A DNA stretch of 64,000 bases from contig NC_058046.1 in NCBI RefSeq assembly GCF_020085105.1, positions 1,530,628-1,594,627 on the forward strand, read 5' to 3'. Position 1 is the first letter of the stretch, and each line of letters opens with the position of its first letter. Both the position numbers and the translations under genes were made by a program. Origin of the DNA: Siniperca chuatsi. Taxonomy: Eukaryota > Chordata > Actinopteri > Centrarchiformes > Sinipercidae. Shown here one piece after another: positions 2,122 to 53,501 of the stretch. Below the pieces are notes generated by a model. The model did no database searches, had not been told where the DNA came from, and saw only the letters and a list, made by a program, of their open reading frames with translations.

Positions 2122-4873
2122 CTATTTCTTCTTTTTCTTGCTCTTCTTTCCTCCCTCTCCCTGCTGAGAGCTGGTGTCTCCTCCCCCGCTCTTCTGGGTC
2201 CGAGTCTTTAGTTTAGGGATCATCTCAGCTACGTAAATCATCACATCTTTACCTGAAGAAACAGAAAGGACAGGACACATCTGTATCTAAAGAAACAAAG
2301 GACAGAAAACATCTGTACCTGAAGAAACAGAAAGGAAACATCTGTACCTAAAGAAACAGGAAGGAAACATCTGTACATAAAGAAACAGAAAGGAAACATC
2401 TGTACCTAAAGAAACAAAGGACAGAAAACATCTGTACATAAAGAAACAGAAAGGAAACATCTGTACCTAAAGAAACAAAGGACAGAAAACATCTGTACCT
2501 AAAGAAACAAAGGACAGAAAACATCTGTACCTGAAGAAACAGAAAGGAAACATCTGTACCTAAAGAAACAGGAAGGAAACATCTGTACCTAAAGAAACAG
2601 AAAGGAAACATCTGTACCTAAAGAAACAAAGGACAGGAAACATCTGTACATAAAGAAACAGAAAGGAAACATCTGTACCTAAAGAAACAGGAAGGAAACA
2701 TCTGTACCTAAAGAAACAGGAAGGAAACATCTGTACCTAAAGAAACAGGAAGGAAACATCTGTACCTAAAGAAACAAAGGACAGAAAACATCTGTACATA
2801 AAGAAACAGAAAGGAAACATCTGTACATAAAGAAACAGAAAGGAAACATCTGTACATAAAGAAACAGGAAGGAAACATCTGTACCTAAAGAAACAGGAAG
2901 GAAACATCTGTACCTAAAGAAACAGGAAGGAAACATCTGTACCTGAAGAAACAGAAAGGAAACATCTGTACCTAAAGAAACAGGAAGGAAACATCTGTAC
3001 CTAAAGAAACAGGAAGGAAACATCTGTACCTAAAGAAACAGGAAGGAAACATCTGTACATAAAGAAACAAAGGACAGGAAACATCTGTACCTAAAGAAAC
3101 AAAGGACAGGAAACATCTGTACCTAAAGAAACAGAAAGGAAACATCTGTACCTAAAGAAACAGGAAGGAAACATCTGTACCTAAAGAAACAAAGGACAGA
3201 AAACATCTGTACCTGAAGAAACAGAAAGGAAACATCTGTACCTAAAGAAACAAAGGACAGGAAACATCTGTACATAAAGAAACAGAAAGGAAACATCTGT
3301 ACCTAAAGAAACAGAAAGGAAACATCTGTACCTAAAGAAACAGAAAGGAAACATCTGTACCTAAAGAAACAGGAAGGAAACATCTGTACCTAAAGAAACA
3401 GGAAGGAAACATCTGTACATAAAGAAACAGAAAGGAAACATCTGTACCTAAAGAAACAAAGGACAGAAAACATCTGTACATAAAGAAACAGAAAGAAACA
3501 GAAAAGAAACAGGAAACATCTGTACCTAAAGAAACAAAGGACAGAAAACATCTGTACCTGAAGAAACAGAAAGGAAACATCTGTACCTAAAGAAACAAAG
3601 GACAGGAAACATCTGTACATAAAGAAACAGAAAGGAAACATCTGTACCTAAAGAAACAGGAAGGAAACATCTGTACCTAAAGAAACAGGAAGGAAACATC
3701 TGTACCTAAAGAAACCGAAAGGAAACATCTGTACCTAAAGAAACCGAAAGGAAACATCTGTACCTAAAGAAACAAAGGACAGGAAACATCTGTACCTAAA
3801 GAAACAGAAAGGAAACATCTGTACCTAAAGAAACAGAAAGGAAACATCTGTACCTAAAGAAACAAAGGACAGGAAACATCTGTACCTAAAGAAACAGAAA
3901 GGAAACATCTGTACCTAAAGAAACAGGAAGGAAACATCTGTACCTAAAGAAACAGGAAGGAAACATCTGTACATAAAGAAACAGAAAGGAAACATCTGTA
4001 CCTAAAGAAACCGAAAGGAAACATCTGTACCTAAAGAAACCGAAAGGAAACATCTGTACCTAAAGAAACCGAAAGGAAACATCTGTACCTAAAGAAACCG
4101 AAAGGAAACATCTGTACCTGAGGGGATAAACATCAGGTGTGTGTTTAGCTACAGTCAGCAGGTTTCAACTATCTATTAAAACCTCGGTGGCACAAAAACC
4201 CACGCAGGACTTTTATTGTAGCTTTTTTTCTTCTGCTCTGAATAGAATTAAGCCTTAAGTTTGGCTACAAAACTGCTCCACCTTTTTAATCTGGATTTTT
4301 ACGCTGTGAAATAGATTGCGGGCTCCCCGCAGGGTCGAGTCCCGCCCCCTGACAACAGTCAGACGGGCCCGAGGTCGGTGATCCCGCACGGTGGTGCGAC
4401 GATCACTTCCTGAGAGTCATTTCTCAAAACCAAAAAGATACGGCGATTGACTTCAGATGAAAATCTCGTCCGCCTTCTCAGTTCCAGGCGTCGCACTCCT
4501 CCAGTTAAACTTTCAGTCCTATCAGATCAATAATTTAAGCTCATCACCTGAGTATTTTTTGAACCAGGACCTTCAGTGTTTGGATCGAGTAGCTCGTGAA
4601 AAACGAGGTGTCAGACGTTGTAGCTACAGCTGTTTCCTTCAGTGTCAGATACATGTTTAATCTTGACCCCCCCCCCCCTCTCGTCGAGCCAAAGTAAACT
4701 GTTAGGAATCTATGAAAGTCAACCGGACCGGTCAGGTGGACTCAGTGCGTGCTGGACTTACGGGAGGTGAATTTCTCCTGACAGAAGCTGCCGTCGGCCT
4801 CCTTCACCTGAACTCTGACGCGACCTCTGAACTGGACGTCCCTGTTCCACTCCCTGGGGTGCATTTTGTTCTG

Positions 4874-4913
<40 letters not shown>

Positions 4914-7623
4914 TGCATTTTTAACCCCTGATTAAGTGTGTGTGATATTTGTTGTCACCGAGTGACAATAAAGCTTTTCGTTTTACCTCCACGTAGACGT
5001 TCACCCCCGCCGCCGTGAGGACGTCTCTGATCTCGGCGCAGGACGGATTCTCCACAGCCTGCAGACACACACCGCCGTCTGTTCGTCATTGGTTGGTTTA
5101 CTACATGTTACACTGCATTTACACTCACAGGCCGCACGATCCACTCAAATCTGACCCCGATTCAGGCAGTCTCATCTTTACGTGACAATGATTCTGCTGC
5201 GTTTGCATTAGCTGGGAGATCTGTTGCATCAAAACAAACCAGGGCTACAAATAACGATTATTTCCACTGTCGATTAATCGATTAGTTGTTTGGTCTATAA
5301 AATGGTGAAAAATGTCGATCAGTGTTTCCCAAAGCCCCAGGCGACGTCCTCAAATGTCTTGTTTTGTCCACAACCCAAAGATATTCAGTTTACTGTCATA
5401 GAGGAGGAAAGAAAGCAGAGAATATTCACTTTTAAGAGGCTGGAATCTGAGAATTTTTACCTTTTTTCCTTAAAAAACAACAACTCGATTATCAAAATAG
5501 TTGACAACTAATCGATTAATCGCTGCAGCACCTAACTTCTCCCTAAGCTGCATCAAATGACACGTATTTCATTGGCATTACTTCAGAGGACAGTGACGTA
5601 TTTAAAGTACGAAGCGGTGAAAGAAAGAGCGTCAGACTTCAGGAAAACCCAGCGACGGTGAGGAAGAACAAATAAACGCATCCTCCCCCAGTTCGGACAA
5701 AACCACCGTGCTTGTACCATAAAAAGTTGTTTATGGAACCGGATTCAAAGACAACGACGACCGCAGATGGAGTACAACTGCCCGAAACGTCACGCAAAAG
5801 GAGAGAAAAACGTCCCGACGGCTCAAACGTCCAGCGGAGCATCAAAGACCGCAGAGAAGTGATCACCACAGCGAGACGAGCGGCAAACGCTGCTCGTCTC
5901 GCTGTGCTACCTGCGCTAACGCTCATCACGACCAGAGTCTACGGGACGGAAGCAGCTCTGGACTGAAAGTGTCCCTTGAGCCTGGACATCGGACTACAGG
6001 TGGGTTCTGAAGAGAAGACAAAACACTTGGTGTTCATGCAGCTTCATAAGCGTGTTTTTAACGATCATATTGCTTGAACTTGTCTGCATGAAGACAATAT
6101 GGACCGCGATAAATATGTTCCCCTTAAAATGTGCGTCCCTAAGAATCGTGGGAGAAGAAAGGTGATTTCGACCAGAATCGTGCAGCTCATCAGGGAGCGT
6201 CCTTGAACGCACCACGCAGTCCCTGCTAACAACCGGCAGCTTCTCAAGCCGCAAACTGACGGTGAGCTGGCGAAACATCGCGCAAAGTTAAAAAGCGCCA
6301 CCTTCTCCGCGGGGATCCTTCGTCCTTCAGCCAGCGTCTTCTTACTGTTGATGTAGACCGGATAGACGCAGATGAACCTGAAACACACACACACACACAC
6401 AGACCGTTTAATGTGAAAAACAACAGACAGGAAACACAGTCCAACAGTGACGGACGCGCTGCTCGTAAATACAGTTTTGGGGTTTCCACGACATCTTAAC
6501 ACGACACACACACAGCACATCACGCTACGGGACGGGCTCCGAACGACGACTCTCTTTATAAATTGAATATTTTGCTCTACAAAATGTCAGAAAACTGTGA
6601 AAAATGTTCCCATCACAGTTTCCTAAAGCCTGCGTTGTCATGTTTAACCGCCTGTATCCTATGAAGTTTCTAAAGCGACGTGCTGTGTGTTTCATCGTTG
6701 CTTTAATGGCTAATTTAACGTCTGGCCAGGGGACGACAGATGAAGATTAGCCCTGAAAATAAAATAAATAAGCAGATGTCTGTCAAATTTCTTGTTTTGC
6801 ACGACTAACAGTCCAAACACATTCAGTTAACGCTCACAACGAAAAACAGCAACAGCAGAATGCGTTTGCGTTTGATAAATGACTAAAACGAATACACAAT
6901 TATCAAAATAGTTTGATTAATAATTTCGGCTCTACTCTGCTTACTAATACATTTCTGGGTCTGTCATCATGAGATCACGATTTAGTTATTCCATTATCTC
7001 AACATAACAGATCATATATTGTTTTTTTTAACCCATTTATCCTGATTTTAATCACGATATCGAACATATTTCGGTGGCGATCGGGACTTAAATGTGTCAT
7101 TATCTCGGGATAAAAAGGTTTCTGTGATGGAGCCTGGAGGCAAAGACAGGACGCAGACACGCAACGCTTGTGTTATCACCACCTTCAGGTATCTGTTTTA
7201 TCTGATTGATCAGGAGAGTCTCTTGAGATCAGTGAAATCACCAGGAAACAGTTATATAATGAGACGATGAAGTTGTGAGTAAAACAGTTCAGCAGTCAAA
7301 TAACTGATTAAATAATTAGATTCTGATAATCGATTGTCATTTTTCAAGAAATTAAAAAAAAGGTAAAGATTATTTACTTAGTTTTTTAAGTTAGTACACT
7401 GAATATCTTTGGGTTTTGGACTGGAAATTGGGCTTTAGGAAACTGTGATGGCACTCTTTCACTGTTTTCTGACTTTTTAATAGACCAAACGATAAAAATC
7501 AATTAAGTGACAAAATAATCTGCAGATTATTCTACAATAAAAATAAGATATGTAGAGCTCTTACTGACTTTTAGGAGGTTTATTTTAAATCCAGCTGTGT
7601 CTGACCAGCTGGCTGGCCTTTAA

Positions 7624-7669
<46 letters not shown>

Positions 7670-8464
7670 AAGTGTGTAGTTTGATGACATTTCATAACCC
7701 TGCTGAACTCCTGACTGAGACGTTAACCTCACGTGCACTTTATTTAACGTTAATCCCATTTCTACAATGTGAACATGTTTTTGTCCTCCATCGTCTTCAG
7801 CCATAAAAAAACAAAAAAACAATATATAGTCGATAGGATCGATATTTGACGGTCAAATATTGAGGTTAAAAGGACTCTTTATACACGTCATGCTAGAGGG
7901 CTACAACGCCACTGTGTCGTACGGATAGACCGACAGGCCAAACTTAATGTAAAAACTAAGCCACTTTGCCACGCTTCCTGCTGAAGACGTCGTAAACAAC
8001 GTGACTTTGTATCTAACTCATTAAAAACGATATTTCTAAAAGATATACAGATAAACAGGTCTTATTAAGCTAAACATTTAACCAGATTTACCCGACAGTT
8101 AGCTACTCCCACTGTCAGTAACCCACAATCCCTCATTTCACTAACGTAACACCGTAGAGAGTTGAAGCCACCCGTGTACACCAAATCGTTTTTTTGTTGG
8201 ATTAAAAGCTAAAAACCCAAATTAAATGTATGCCGAATTGAAGAGTGGCCCTTCTATGTCGACACGTTTACTACAGCAACAGTTAATAAGCGAGTTACAT
8301 TTACAGGTACCCAAGTTGTCCTTAAATTCAATAATCTTCTATAGGAGTTTTACAGTGACCGAATGGCTAAGCACTGTTAGCTGTAGCTTAGCTAGGCTAA
8401 AGGGCTAGCTTTTTACAAGAACTCACCTCTCTTTATCCGCGGGGTTTTCCGTTAGATGAGCCAT
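2122..8464 (-). CDS. srp19: Signal recognition particle 19 kDa protein
   Basis: SRP19 binds SRP RNA (helices 6 and 8) and lets SRP54 join, so that ribosomes with signal peptides are sent to the ER. Five minus-strand exons join in frame: 8427-8464 (start MAHLTENPADKE), 6302-6377 (FICVYPVYINSKKTLAEGRR), 4987-5058, 4762-4870 and 2122-2252. The product is 141 aa against 144 in human. Conserved blocks are EGRRIP, the MHPREWNRD region and the basic tail ending GGKKSKKKKKK. All junctions are GT-AG and phases agree (AG|G, 0, 0, C|GT). The start ATG has a good context (AACAATGG). The exon 2 donor (AAG|GTGGCG) is weak. Exon 4 starts with N-K-M where human has K-N-K-M. The last intron holds a minisatellite built from its own acceptor. 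Confidence 0.96.
2253..4121. repeat. Minisatellite of splice-acceptor copies, 29/32-bp unit
   Basis: A tandem array of about 60 units of 29 bp, or 32 bp where 'aaaggac' replaces 'gaaag', lies wholly in the last intron of srp19. The plus-strand core is 'acatctgtacctaaagaaa'. The first unit is continuous with the exon boundary: 'acatctttacctgaagaaac' at 2242-2261 differs by one base from array units such as the one at 2521. On the coding (minus) strand each unit is a pyrimidine tract followed by TTTAG or TTCAG and then GTACAGATG. Three versions alternate: ctgaag (few), cctaaag (most) and cataaag. Open frames on the minus strand here are repeat artefacts. Confidence 0.95.
4122..4761. other. srp19 intron 4, remaining part
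   Basis: Unique-looking intron sequence between the minisatellite and exon 4. It contains a GC-rich patch at 4318-4412 that can form several hairpins and includes a T-arm-like 'gggtcgagtccc'. No coding exon is seen. Confidence 0.5.
4318..4412 (+). other. Structured GC-rich patch with tRNA-Ser-like 3' half
   Basis: In order there are a hairpin gcggg-ctc-cccgc (about 4319-4331), a T-arm-like 'gggtcgagtccc', a ctgac-aaca-gtcag hairpin (about 4349-4362), and a long hairpin gtgatc..cgcac-ggtg-gtgcg..gatcac (about 4378-4407). The first two parts resemble the variable arm and T arm of a type II tRNA. No acceptable D arm or anticodon stem precedes them. It is either a degenerate tRNA-derived relic or an unrelated structured intronic RNA. 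Confidence 0.25.
4878..4912. repeat. CA microsatellite next to srp19 exon 4 acceptor
   Basis: A (CA)n run lies a few bases beyond the exon. In srp19 transcript sense it is a UG array directly upstream of the exon 4 acceptor (TTTTCCAG). Confidence 0.9.
5241..5532 (+). repeat. Complete fish MITE, 'CGATTAATCG' family
   Basis: It starts 'agggctacaaataacgatta' and ends 'cgattaatcgctgcagcacc', an inverted terminal pair. The interior has the common 'ccaaagccccaggcgacgtc' and 'aaagatattcagtttactg' blocks. It is the best preserved of at least a dozen copies in the window. The open frame at 5290-5511 is repeat sequence and not a gene. Confidence 0.75.
5536..6301. other. srp19 intron 2, no further exon
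   Basis: It holds a compact perfect hairpin (stems 5868-5881 and 5892-5905) and no recognisable exon. Overlapping open frames on both strands here have no family features. Confidence 0.5.
6555..8420. other. srp19 intron 1 with repeat fragments
   Basis: Large first intron of srp19. Diverged copies of the 'CGATTAATCG' MITE lie at about 6555-6935 (plus) and 7300-7545 (minus), and an AT microsatellite at 7627-7662. No coding exon is seen. The open frame at 7580-7822 runs through the AT repeat. Confidence 0.6.
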
Positions 8465-9409
8465 TGTTCGTTAGTTAGTTGGGTGGGTTGTTCGTCTGAC
8501 TGCAGAAGGTCGACTCTCGGCTGGATACAGCGACAAACGACACGGTTTGATTTGTGCCGTAAAACACGCCGCCATACGGCCGCTCCACTTGCACGTCGAC
8601 GGACTGTTGACAACCAGTAGGTGCGCTTGATTCAATGTACCAGGCGGGCCGGTGTTACACTGAAACAAAGGCCGCCAGAAAACGGGTGTCCCTGCTCAAC
8701 CTTTTATTATCAAACTGCTCTCAAAAAACTCCAATAAGAGAAATTCCTATTACTTTATTTCTAATTACTGGTTTATTATTACTAATTTGGGAGGGGTCGT
8801 GCTGCGCTGATACTAATATCACAGATACACAGCGAATGAAAATCCTTTTCTCATATCAAAAGGCATGACGTAACAAGGTGATATAACAATGTTAAGTATG
8901 TTTTTGTTCCCAGGACCCCAAAACACAACATTAGCGTTAATTAAACATTACAAAAAGTATATATTTTTAAAAACTGATTGTAATTTTCTAGTAGTTTACT
9001 TTCTGTCCACGCGGTGTCGCTGGTGCGCAGACTCTGTGCGCTGCTGAAATGCCCGGATATTATTGTAGCTAGCTCTTTTAGCAAATCGGCTAGCCGCTGC
9101 GACGCCGCTGCCTTTTGCCGCTACGGTCTGTCGCATCGGGGACATTCGACCCTTTTGACTCCCCCGGCCCATATAAACTATTTTTTAACGCTGGTAACTT
9201 AATGTCGGTAATTTATCATGATAGAAGTTGACTGAGGGGCTCGTTAATTTTAGGTCTTACCGTTGATTTTCCAACCGATTTGGCGGGACTAGATCGGGTT
9301 AACAATACGACGAGCTAAAAGCTAACGTTATAGCAGCTAGTGTCGAGACAGGCCAGTTTGTTTTTTCAGGTAGCTAACACAGCTAGCTTAGCAAGCTACC
9401 GCGGCTGTC
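8465..9409. promoter_or_regulatory. Shared head-to-head promoter region srp19 / ppp2cb
   Basis: The start codons of srp19 (minus, 8464) and the PP2A gene (plus, 9410) point away from each other across 945 bases with no other gene. The segment has CpG-rich stretches (about 8490-8620 and 9010-9150) typical of housekeeping promoters. No TATA box can be assigned with confidence. Shared control is inferred from the arrangement only. Confidence 0.55.

Positions 9410-31433: not shown

Positions 31434-53501
<22,068 letters not shown>

Follow-up and report, generated by a model that had tools for sequence, protein, structure and literature searches.

Three quarters of the last srp19 intron of Siniperca chuatsi are taken up by a minisatellite whose units repeat the very 3' splice site that the array precedes. 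Our results indicate that this array is very probably a 3'-splice-site mirage, founded on the gene's own acceptor, passive and removed together with the intron. Mirages are minisatellite-like duplications of intron/exon boundaries, described in the lancelet Adh3, globin, TnC and PGBD5 genes (PMC3087553 and PMC3902484, in excerpt). Judged from the arrays found at other exon starts, the srp19 array would be one of about six mirages in this genome.

The array and the srp19 acceptor

We analysed a window of 64,000 nt (the whole stretch of DNA, positions 1530628-1594627 of Siniperca chuatsi NC_058046.1, contig C5) against a genome of 719 Mb. The srp19 gene lies on the minus strand of the window; its joined exons matched the SRP19 chains in PDB (E 5.5e-59) and SRP19 in Pfam (E 3.7e-31), and a search of the 719 Mb with the last two exons gave two matches, both in this srp19 gene. 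The features of the locus, in window coordinates, are the following.

2122..2252, minus strand: coding part of the srp19 last exon, within the PDB and Pfam matches above; its first ten bases, 2243-2252, are GTAAAGATGT and are mimicked by the units
2252, minus strand: start of the last exon, GTAAAGATGTGATG; phase C|GT AAA GAT GTG, read R K D V
2253..2286, minus strand: exon-proximal unit of 34 nt containing the real acceptor, TGTCCTTTCTGTTTCTTCAG; combines traits of the 29-nt and 32-nt classes
2253..4117, minus strand: srp19 minisatellite array, 1,865 nt, 62 units, mostly of 29 or 32 nt
4118..4176, minus strand: upstream edge of the array, acceptor-like itself, CCCCTCAG|GTACAG
2253..4761, minus strand: last intron, 2,509 nt, of which the array makes up 1,865 nt; donor CCC|GTAAGT at 4761
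4762..4870, minus strand: penultimate exon, NKMHPREWNRD...KFTSR, SRP19 match
4987..5058, minus strand: exon AVENPSCAEIRDVL..., SRP19 match
6302..6379, minus strand: exon region RFICVYPVYINSKKTLAEGRRIPAEK, SRP19 match

An earlier note on this DNA had placed a minisatellite at 2242..4121, and it is real. TRF returned 2243-4119 on the window with a period of 29, 63.4 copies and a score of 2694, and the array proper, taken in transcript sense from the first GTACAG at 4117 to the last AG at 2253-2254, covers 2253-4117. The first cutting of the array gave 61 pieces (45 of 29 nt, 14 of 32 nt, one of 46 nt and a last one of 66 nt), and the last piece divides into units of 32 and 34 nt, which brings the total to 62 units. 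Each unit pairs a pyrimidine tract with ten bases that nearly reproduce the start of the last exon; the commonest, GTACAGATGTTTCCTTCCTGTTTCTTTAG in transcript sense, accounts for 17 of the 61 pieces.

The unit start GTACAGATGT agrees with the first ten exon bases at nine positions, and the final, exon-proximal unit starts ATACAGATGT where the others start as just given. Compared with the unit consensus, the boundary agrees at 27 of 30 positions, so that the units span both the end of the intron and the start of the exon, while nowhere else in the window, on either strand, do more than 20 of 30 positions agree. These counts bear out the claim that the units copy the terminal 3' splice site and the exon start. 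It had also been said that 2242-2261 hold ten coding bases plus the start of the intron; ten coding bases are indeed copied, but they are 2243-2252 and what adjoins them is the intron end. The array runs from 4117 to 2253 directly up to the authentic boundary, with the exon following from 2252.

The base that differs in the exon part is informative about direction. All 62 units have C where the exon has A (ACA against AAA), the exon AAA encodes the lysine of SR-K, and the SRP19 chains in the PDB alignment also carry lysine (SRK); we thus took the exon AAA as ancestral and the unit ACA as derived. That the functional srp19 acceptor is the likely founder, as had been proposed, is well supported by this polarity and by five other arrays that end at apparent exon starts, with both the putative root and the age of the array resting on within-genome evidence.

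The units fall into 11 types that are interspersed along the array. Only the exon-proximal unit carries both CTGTCC, typical of the 32-nt class, and TTTCTG, typical of the 29-nt class, and its nearest relatives are the CAG-ending 29-mers and one 32-mer type (distances of 4.5 and 4.75, with others up to 9.25). A unit comparison rooted on the exon boundary, the course suggested earlier, gave no order of descent, as divergence from the real acceptor showed no gradient with position in the array (rho -0.01, p 0.94), which is expected where an array homogenises. Likewise, unit-type autocorrelation revealed no significant higher-order repeat (maximum 0.27 at lag 1, below the 99% shuffle level of 0.29). 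When we searched with three unit copies, all 26 matches fell within the srp19 array, in a tool that skips very common words. The array is homogenised internally, as in mirages.

At the opposite end, the upstream edge has the yUnAy motifs TTTAT, CTGAT, CTGAC and TTAAT at 10, 16, 38 and 59 nt before the array. Its longest run in common with any unit is 4 nt, and its score with its own unit (14) lies within the 12-15 reached with the units of other genes; given no unit match, the first duplication cannot be reconstructed there. We considered this edge as the srp19 founder and rejected it, since it fits its own unit no better than those of other genes; shuffling gave fractions of 0.03-0.04 for two unit types and of 0.49 for the exon-proximal one.

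Decoy acceptors and the real site

Splice signals are retained in many units but not in all. Forty-four of the 62 units end in TAG, six in CAG (one of these being the real acceptor) and 12 in TAT, so an AG end is kept by 50 units including the real site. Among the 61 junctions between units, 48 read AG|GT and 13 otherwise, and each unit contains a second AG (ACAG|ATG). With the upstream edge included, 49 AG|GT sites and one AG|AT precede the real acceptor, which lowers the about 60 decoy acceptors claimed previously to about 50.

We scored these sites with weight tables not trained on this genome. On that scale the real acceptor reaches 14.1 and the decoys a median of 14.5, with 29 of the 49 AG|GT decoys scoring at least as high as the real site. 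Within 150 nt of the exon there is only one strict yUnAy, 126 nt away, whereas four lie within the 60 nt before the first unit. Taken together, the decoy scores and the distance of the nearest yUnAy mean that local signal strength does not explain correct splicing.

Not one of the 49 AG|GT sites upstream opens into the native frame. Of the predicted products, 34 stop within 10 residues (R-TDVSFLFL-stop), 11 after 11-40 and four after 41-70, and the last 42 residues of the protein (from KDVMIYVAEM on) would be missing from all. The exon-proximal AG must therefore be where splicing ends. The likeliest route past the decoys would be splicing to this last AG, either in one step or in several by way of the AG|GT sites. 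A scanning model, stated in PMC10946897 (in excerpt), has the AG reached 5' to 3' from the branch point, and about 50 near-identical AGs ahead of the true acceptor, at the sole srp19 locus detected, bear on that model.

Arrays at other exon starts

We scanned the genome for three tandem copies of a pyrimidine tract followed by YAGGT, a pattern that describes units and does not select for exons. The loosest version (AGGT, five pyrimidines) gave 891 matches against 238 in the reversed control, the AGGTR pattern 447 against 5 with wide gaps and 125 against 5 with six pyrimidines, and the AGGTA pattern with five pyrimidines 30 against 2, of which 29 were srp19. The srp19 tract is shorter than two of the patterns require, the six-pyrimidine AGGTR among them, and these did not recover its array. 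For other dinucleotides the counts were 68 against 0 (AGGAR), 6 against 27 (AGGCR), 37 against 1 (AGATR) and 1 against 0 (AGGGR). Donor-side arrays (AGGTRAG) were too numerous to be read, at 3,192 matches and 586 in the control.

Array places were fetched, read on the matching strand and classified by eye, and the AG|GT counts that follow refer to arrays among the matches listed (about the first hundred each of the AGGT scan and of both AGGTR scans). The 13 AG|GT places examined were C1:614k, C1:724k, C2:239k, srp19 on C5, C7:31.98M, C8:1.09M, C9:118k, C13:102k, C17:959k, C19:26.54M, C21:582k, C22:12.1M and C22:24.35M; C2:517k, C11:29.93M and C1:9.96M also matched AG|GT patterns and were left out of this set. 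Of these 13, six abut an apparent exon start directly (flush arrays), C2:239k duplicates an exon end and the other six show neither arrangement. At least six genes thus appear to carry flush arrays among the matches listed, srp19 and these five more.

C19: KMT2C/D-like flush array; the protein across the joined junction matches human KMT2D (E 3.7e-40)
C22: CTC1 flush array; Pfam CTC1 (E 7.5e-9) aligned across the junction over residues 1-81 of 91, with PDB giving only 0.0075
C7: ABCC5-like flush array; E 2.6e-12, the alignment starting at the exon's second residue and covering the exon after the array only
C17: prune-like flush array; Pfam DHH (E 9.2e-9), solely on the exons before the array
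C9: TMEM79-like flush array; open exon with donor, and next exon

Two of these assignments are softer than the others. The prune-like exon after the array, which we take to belong to the gene from its frame and its resemblance, has its start placed 38 nt upstream of another AG, and with the later AG the array would not be flush; a search of the prune-like exons against PDB gave no usable match (best 0.93). The TMEM79-like gene is presumably so named, and a Pfam search of its exons did not name TMEM79.

Next, we compared the exons with their units. Over exon bases 4-10, which lie beyond the selected AGGTR, the srp19, prune, KMT2, TMEM79 and CTC1 exons (the ABCC5-like array being left out) agree with the start of their own unit at 25 of 35 positions, against a permuted mean of 14.8, and only two of the 120 gene permutations, the true one included, reached that value. 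The match does not extend further: at exon bases 11-14 the same five arrays agreed at 6 of 20 positions, against 4.8 permuted. The upstream edge repeats the intron part of the unit exactly in three of the genes, over 29 nt in prune, 17 nt in TMEM79 and 37 nt in KMT2, where most of the repeat is a run of GT. Over the five genes the edges and their own units scored 161 against a permuted mean of 115, again with 2 of 120 permutations as good, while the CTC1 edge scored 47 with the TMEM79 unit and 32 with its own, its edge coordinate being one base off there. Edge repeats and exon matches fit a tandem duplication across the acceptor. A genome of this size has on the order of a few hundred thousand acceptors, so the chance that a randomly placed array would end at one is far below 1 in 100.

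Several of the places read deserve mention in their own right. At C2:239k (C2:235500-243500, minus strand, about 3819-4299 of that stretch) we observed a donor-side mirage in which the exon end ...HLSLLQDPPI with GTACACACAC is repeated in about 10 copies at the start of the intron; the donor is copied along with the exon end, so duplication of this kind is open to either exon edge, as in the lancelet globins. C8:1.09M and C13:102k carry closely similar acceptor-like units (GTGTGACGCCGGGCCGAGACCTTCCACAG and variants) on two chromosomes, with no adjoining exon seen. On C21 (C21:578500-586500, minus strand, 3967-4027 of that stretch) three acceptor-like units GTGTCTCTCAGGTGTCTCCCCCCCCTGCAG stop roughly 50 nt short of an apparent exon start, CTCCAG|ATGATTTCGG, and are not flush with it. 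The stretch C9:114000-123000 holds a 35-nt minisatellite at its positions 1-1550 and, after the TMEM79-like exons, a CAGA tetranucleotide array of 3.5 kb at 5502-8998, almost up to the limit of that stretch.

Flush position might depend on the first two exon bases. Among the AGGTR six-pyrimidine matches listed (about 100 of 125), four of the nine places with AG|GT directly abut an apparent exon start, against none of the 10 determinable places with other dinucleotides (AG|GA 0/6, AG|GC 0/2, AG|GG 0/1, AG|AT 0/1; one-sided Fisher 0.033), the patterns being equally specific. With the prune-like case, whose exon start is a prediction, removed, the AG|GT count falls to 3/9 and the Fisher value becomes 0.087. 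At least three of the non-GT arrays resemble coding repeats. Outside the 0/10 count, at C19:26551k (C19:26547501-26555500, 3764-5298 of that stretch) and about 8 kb downstream of the KMT2-like array, lie 41 AG|ATAAC acceptor-like sites in units of about 34-43 nt with TTC tracts, and the 3' side of this array runs into N.

How the array is removed and what resembles it

A recursive splice site combines a pyrimidine tract with AG|GT and regenerates a good donor when spliced. Each AG|GT of the array might accordingly serve first as acceptor and then as donor, so that the array would be taken out stepwise and without trace; this would also account for why arrays are tolerated before exons that start with GT. 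The excess of AG|GT among the flush arrays is a weak hint of such recursive removal, and all six flush arrays indeed have AG|GT units, though the search patterns demanded AG|GT. Donor scores from the weight table speak for it in the prune, KMT2, TMEM79 and CTC1 arrays (medians of 7.9-9.5). The srp19 units, however, combine the tract and AG|GT with a poor donor, their median of 2.7 on the same weights comparing with 7.6 at the exon start. Arrays with AG|GA and AG|AT, too, outnumber the matches of their reversed patterns, and the census of AG|GT arrays among the matches listed is small and judged by eye. Even with human UBC as a precedent in which tandem AG|GT sites work in this manner (PMC10809524, in excerpt), we regard recursive removal of the srp19 array as unlikely. 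Similarly doubtful is the broader proposal that acceptor mirages are a recurrent vertebrate route of intron growth, open only to exons starting with GT, in which units act as dual-specific GT...AG mini-introns and an array of any length is recursively spliced out. If it were true, conserved genes in this genome would hold natural ladders, each with dozens of almost identical acceptors.

PTB and U2AF2 bind pyrimidine tracts of the kind found in the units, and the array places 62 of them right before the acceptor of the only srp19 locus found. A role as a sponge for PTB or U2AF that regulates srp19 splicing or expression nevertheless seems improbable, as the AG is lost in 12 of 62 units, unit types show no trend along the array and unrelated genes carry arrays of the same kind.

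A reverse order of events has a slightly lower standing still. An unrelated intronic minisatellite could have reached the acceptor and replaced the intron end, with the exon match arising by chance or gene conversion, and the homogenised state of the units would be compatible with this. The nine of ten coding bases stand in exact register, though, and the 10-mer with at most one mismatch occurs only five times in the 128,000 positions outside 2242-4119. The unit search matched the srp19 locus alone, and further flush arrays resemble their own exon starts. Such a sequence of events is consequently very improbable. Tandem arrays are prone to assembly errors, but this one mixes 11 distinct unit types over 1.9 kb with no significant periodicity, open exons flank it and similar arrays occur in other genes, which makes an assembly artefact extremely unlikely.

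We therefore return to the mirage. Under this reading, a short tandem duplication across the terminal srp19 acceptor and the first ten exon bases would have founded the minisatellite, and slippage or unequal exchange would then have amplified and homogenised the units. The array would have no function of its own and may have grown because removal of the intron takes it along. That this removal is harmless we infer from the open srp19 gene with its single locus.

The earlier note knew of no described minisatellite seeded in this way, but the kind has precedents. Lancelet mirages have been published (PMC3087553, PMC3902484, both in excerpt; for Adh3, Canestro 2002 as cited), and in human IFI6 (6-16) a minisatellite is reported to give multiple splice donors (Turri 1995, as cited). 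In the lancelet cases (Adh3, globin BflGb6/BflGb9, TnC and PGBD5), as in srp19, the boundary is duplicated in tandem beside the authentic one, many units carry AG/GT signals and, as far as the excerpts go, units are homogenised; the lancelet arrays are also unstable in length (PMC3087553, PMC3902484). RT-PCR suggested that they leave splicing undisturbed (PMC3087553, in excerpt). The Adh3 units of 10-72 bp bracket the roughly 30 nt of srp19, while BflGb6, with 3-6 units of 150-160 bp according to the same excerpts, differs from the 62 units of this vertebrate gene.

The human cases resemble the srp19 array in other ways. The units of IFI6 are likewise splice sites at an exon edge; they are donors, however, two of which are reported as used, whereas the srp19 units carry acceptors at an exon start. 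UBC, a tandem array of dual-specific AG|GT sites, and VCX3A share with srp19 the tandem AG|GT at the period of the repeat (PMC10809524, in excerpt), but the UBC units are coding, measure 228 nt and have shown use as both donor and acceptor, while the srp19 unit is intronic and known from its sequence. In human genes, internal tandem repeats at the boundaries between exons and introns can give rise to introns (PMC2812944, in excerpt); they too have minisatellite units of about 30 bp that alter exon-intron structure, and they average about four units, occur in duplicated genes and are described as creating introns, against 62 units in srp19. In the open-licence literature, as far as its excerpts reach, we found no acceptor array of the size of srp19 and no vertebrate mirage under that name. 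Within that literature the kind is already known from lancelets, and the srp19 array would extend mirages to a vertebrate. The arrays at six genes, by the present count, could serve as natural experiments on how 3' splice sites are chosen, on recursive splicing and on the growth of introns.

Elsewhere in the window we observed two minor repeats. Positions 1-790, read by eye, hold an apparent remnant of a non-LTR retrotransposon with an ATT-rich tail, which we take by resemblance to be its 3' end, and positions 35976-36055 carry 2.5 copies of a 32-nt unit, (AC)8 plus TGTAGATACCATCTAC, at 100% identity.
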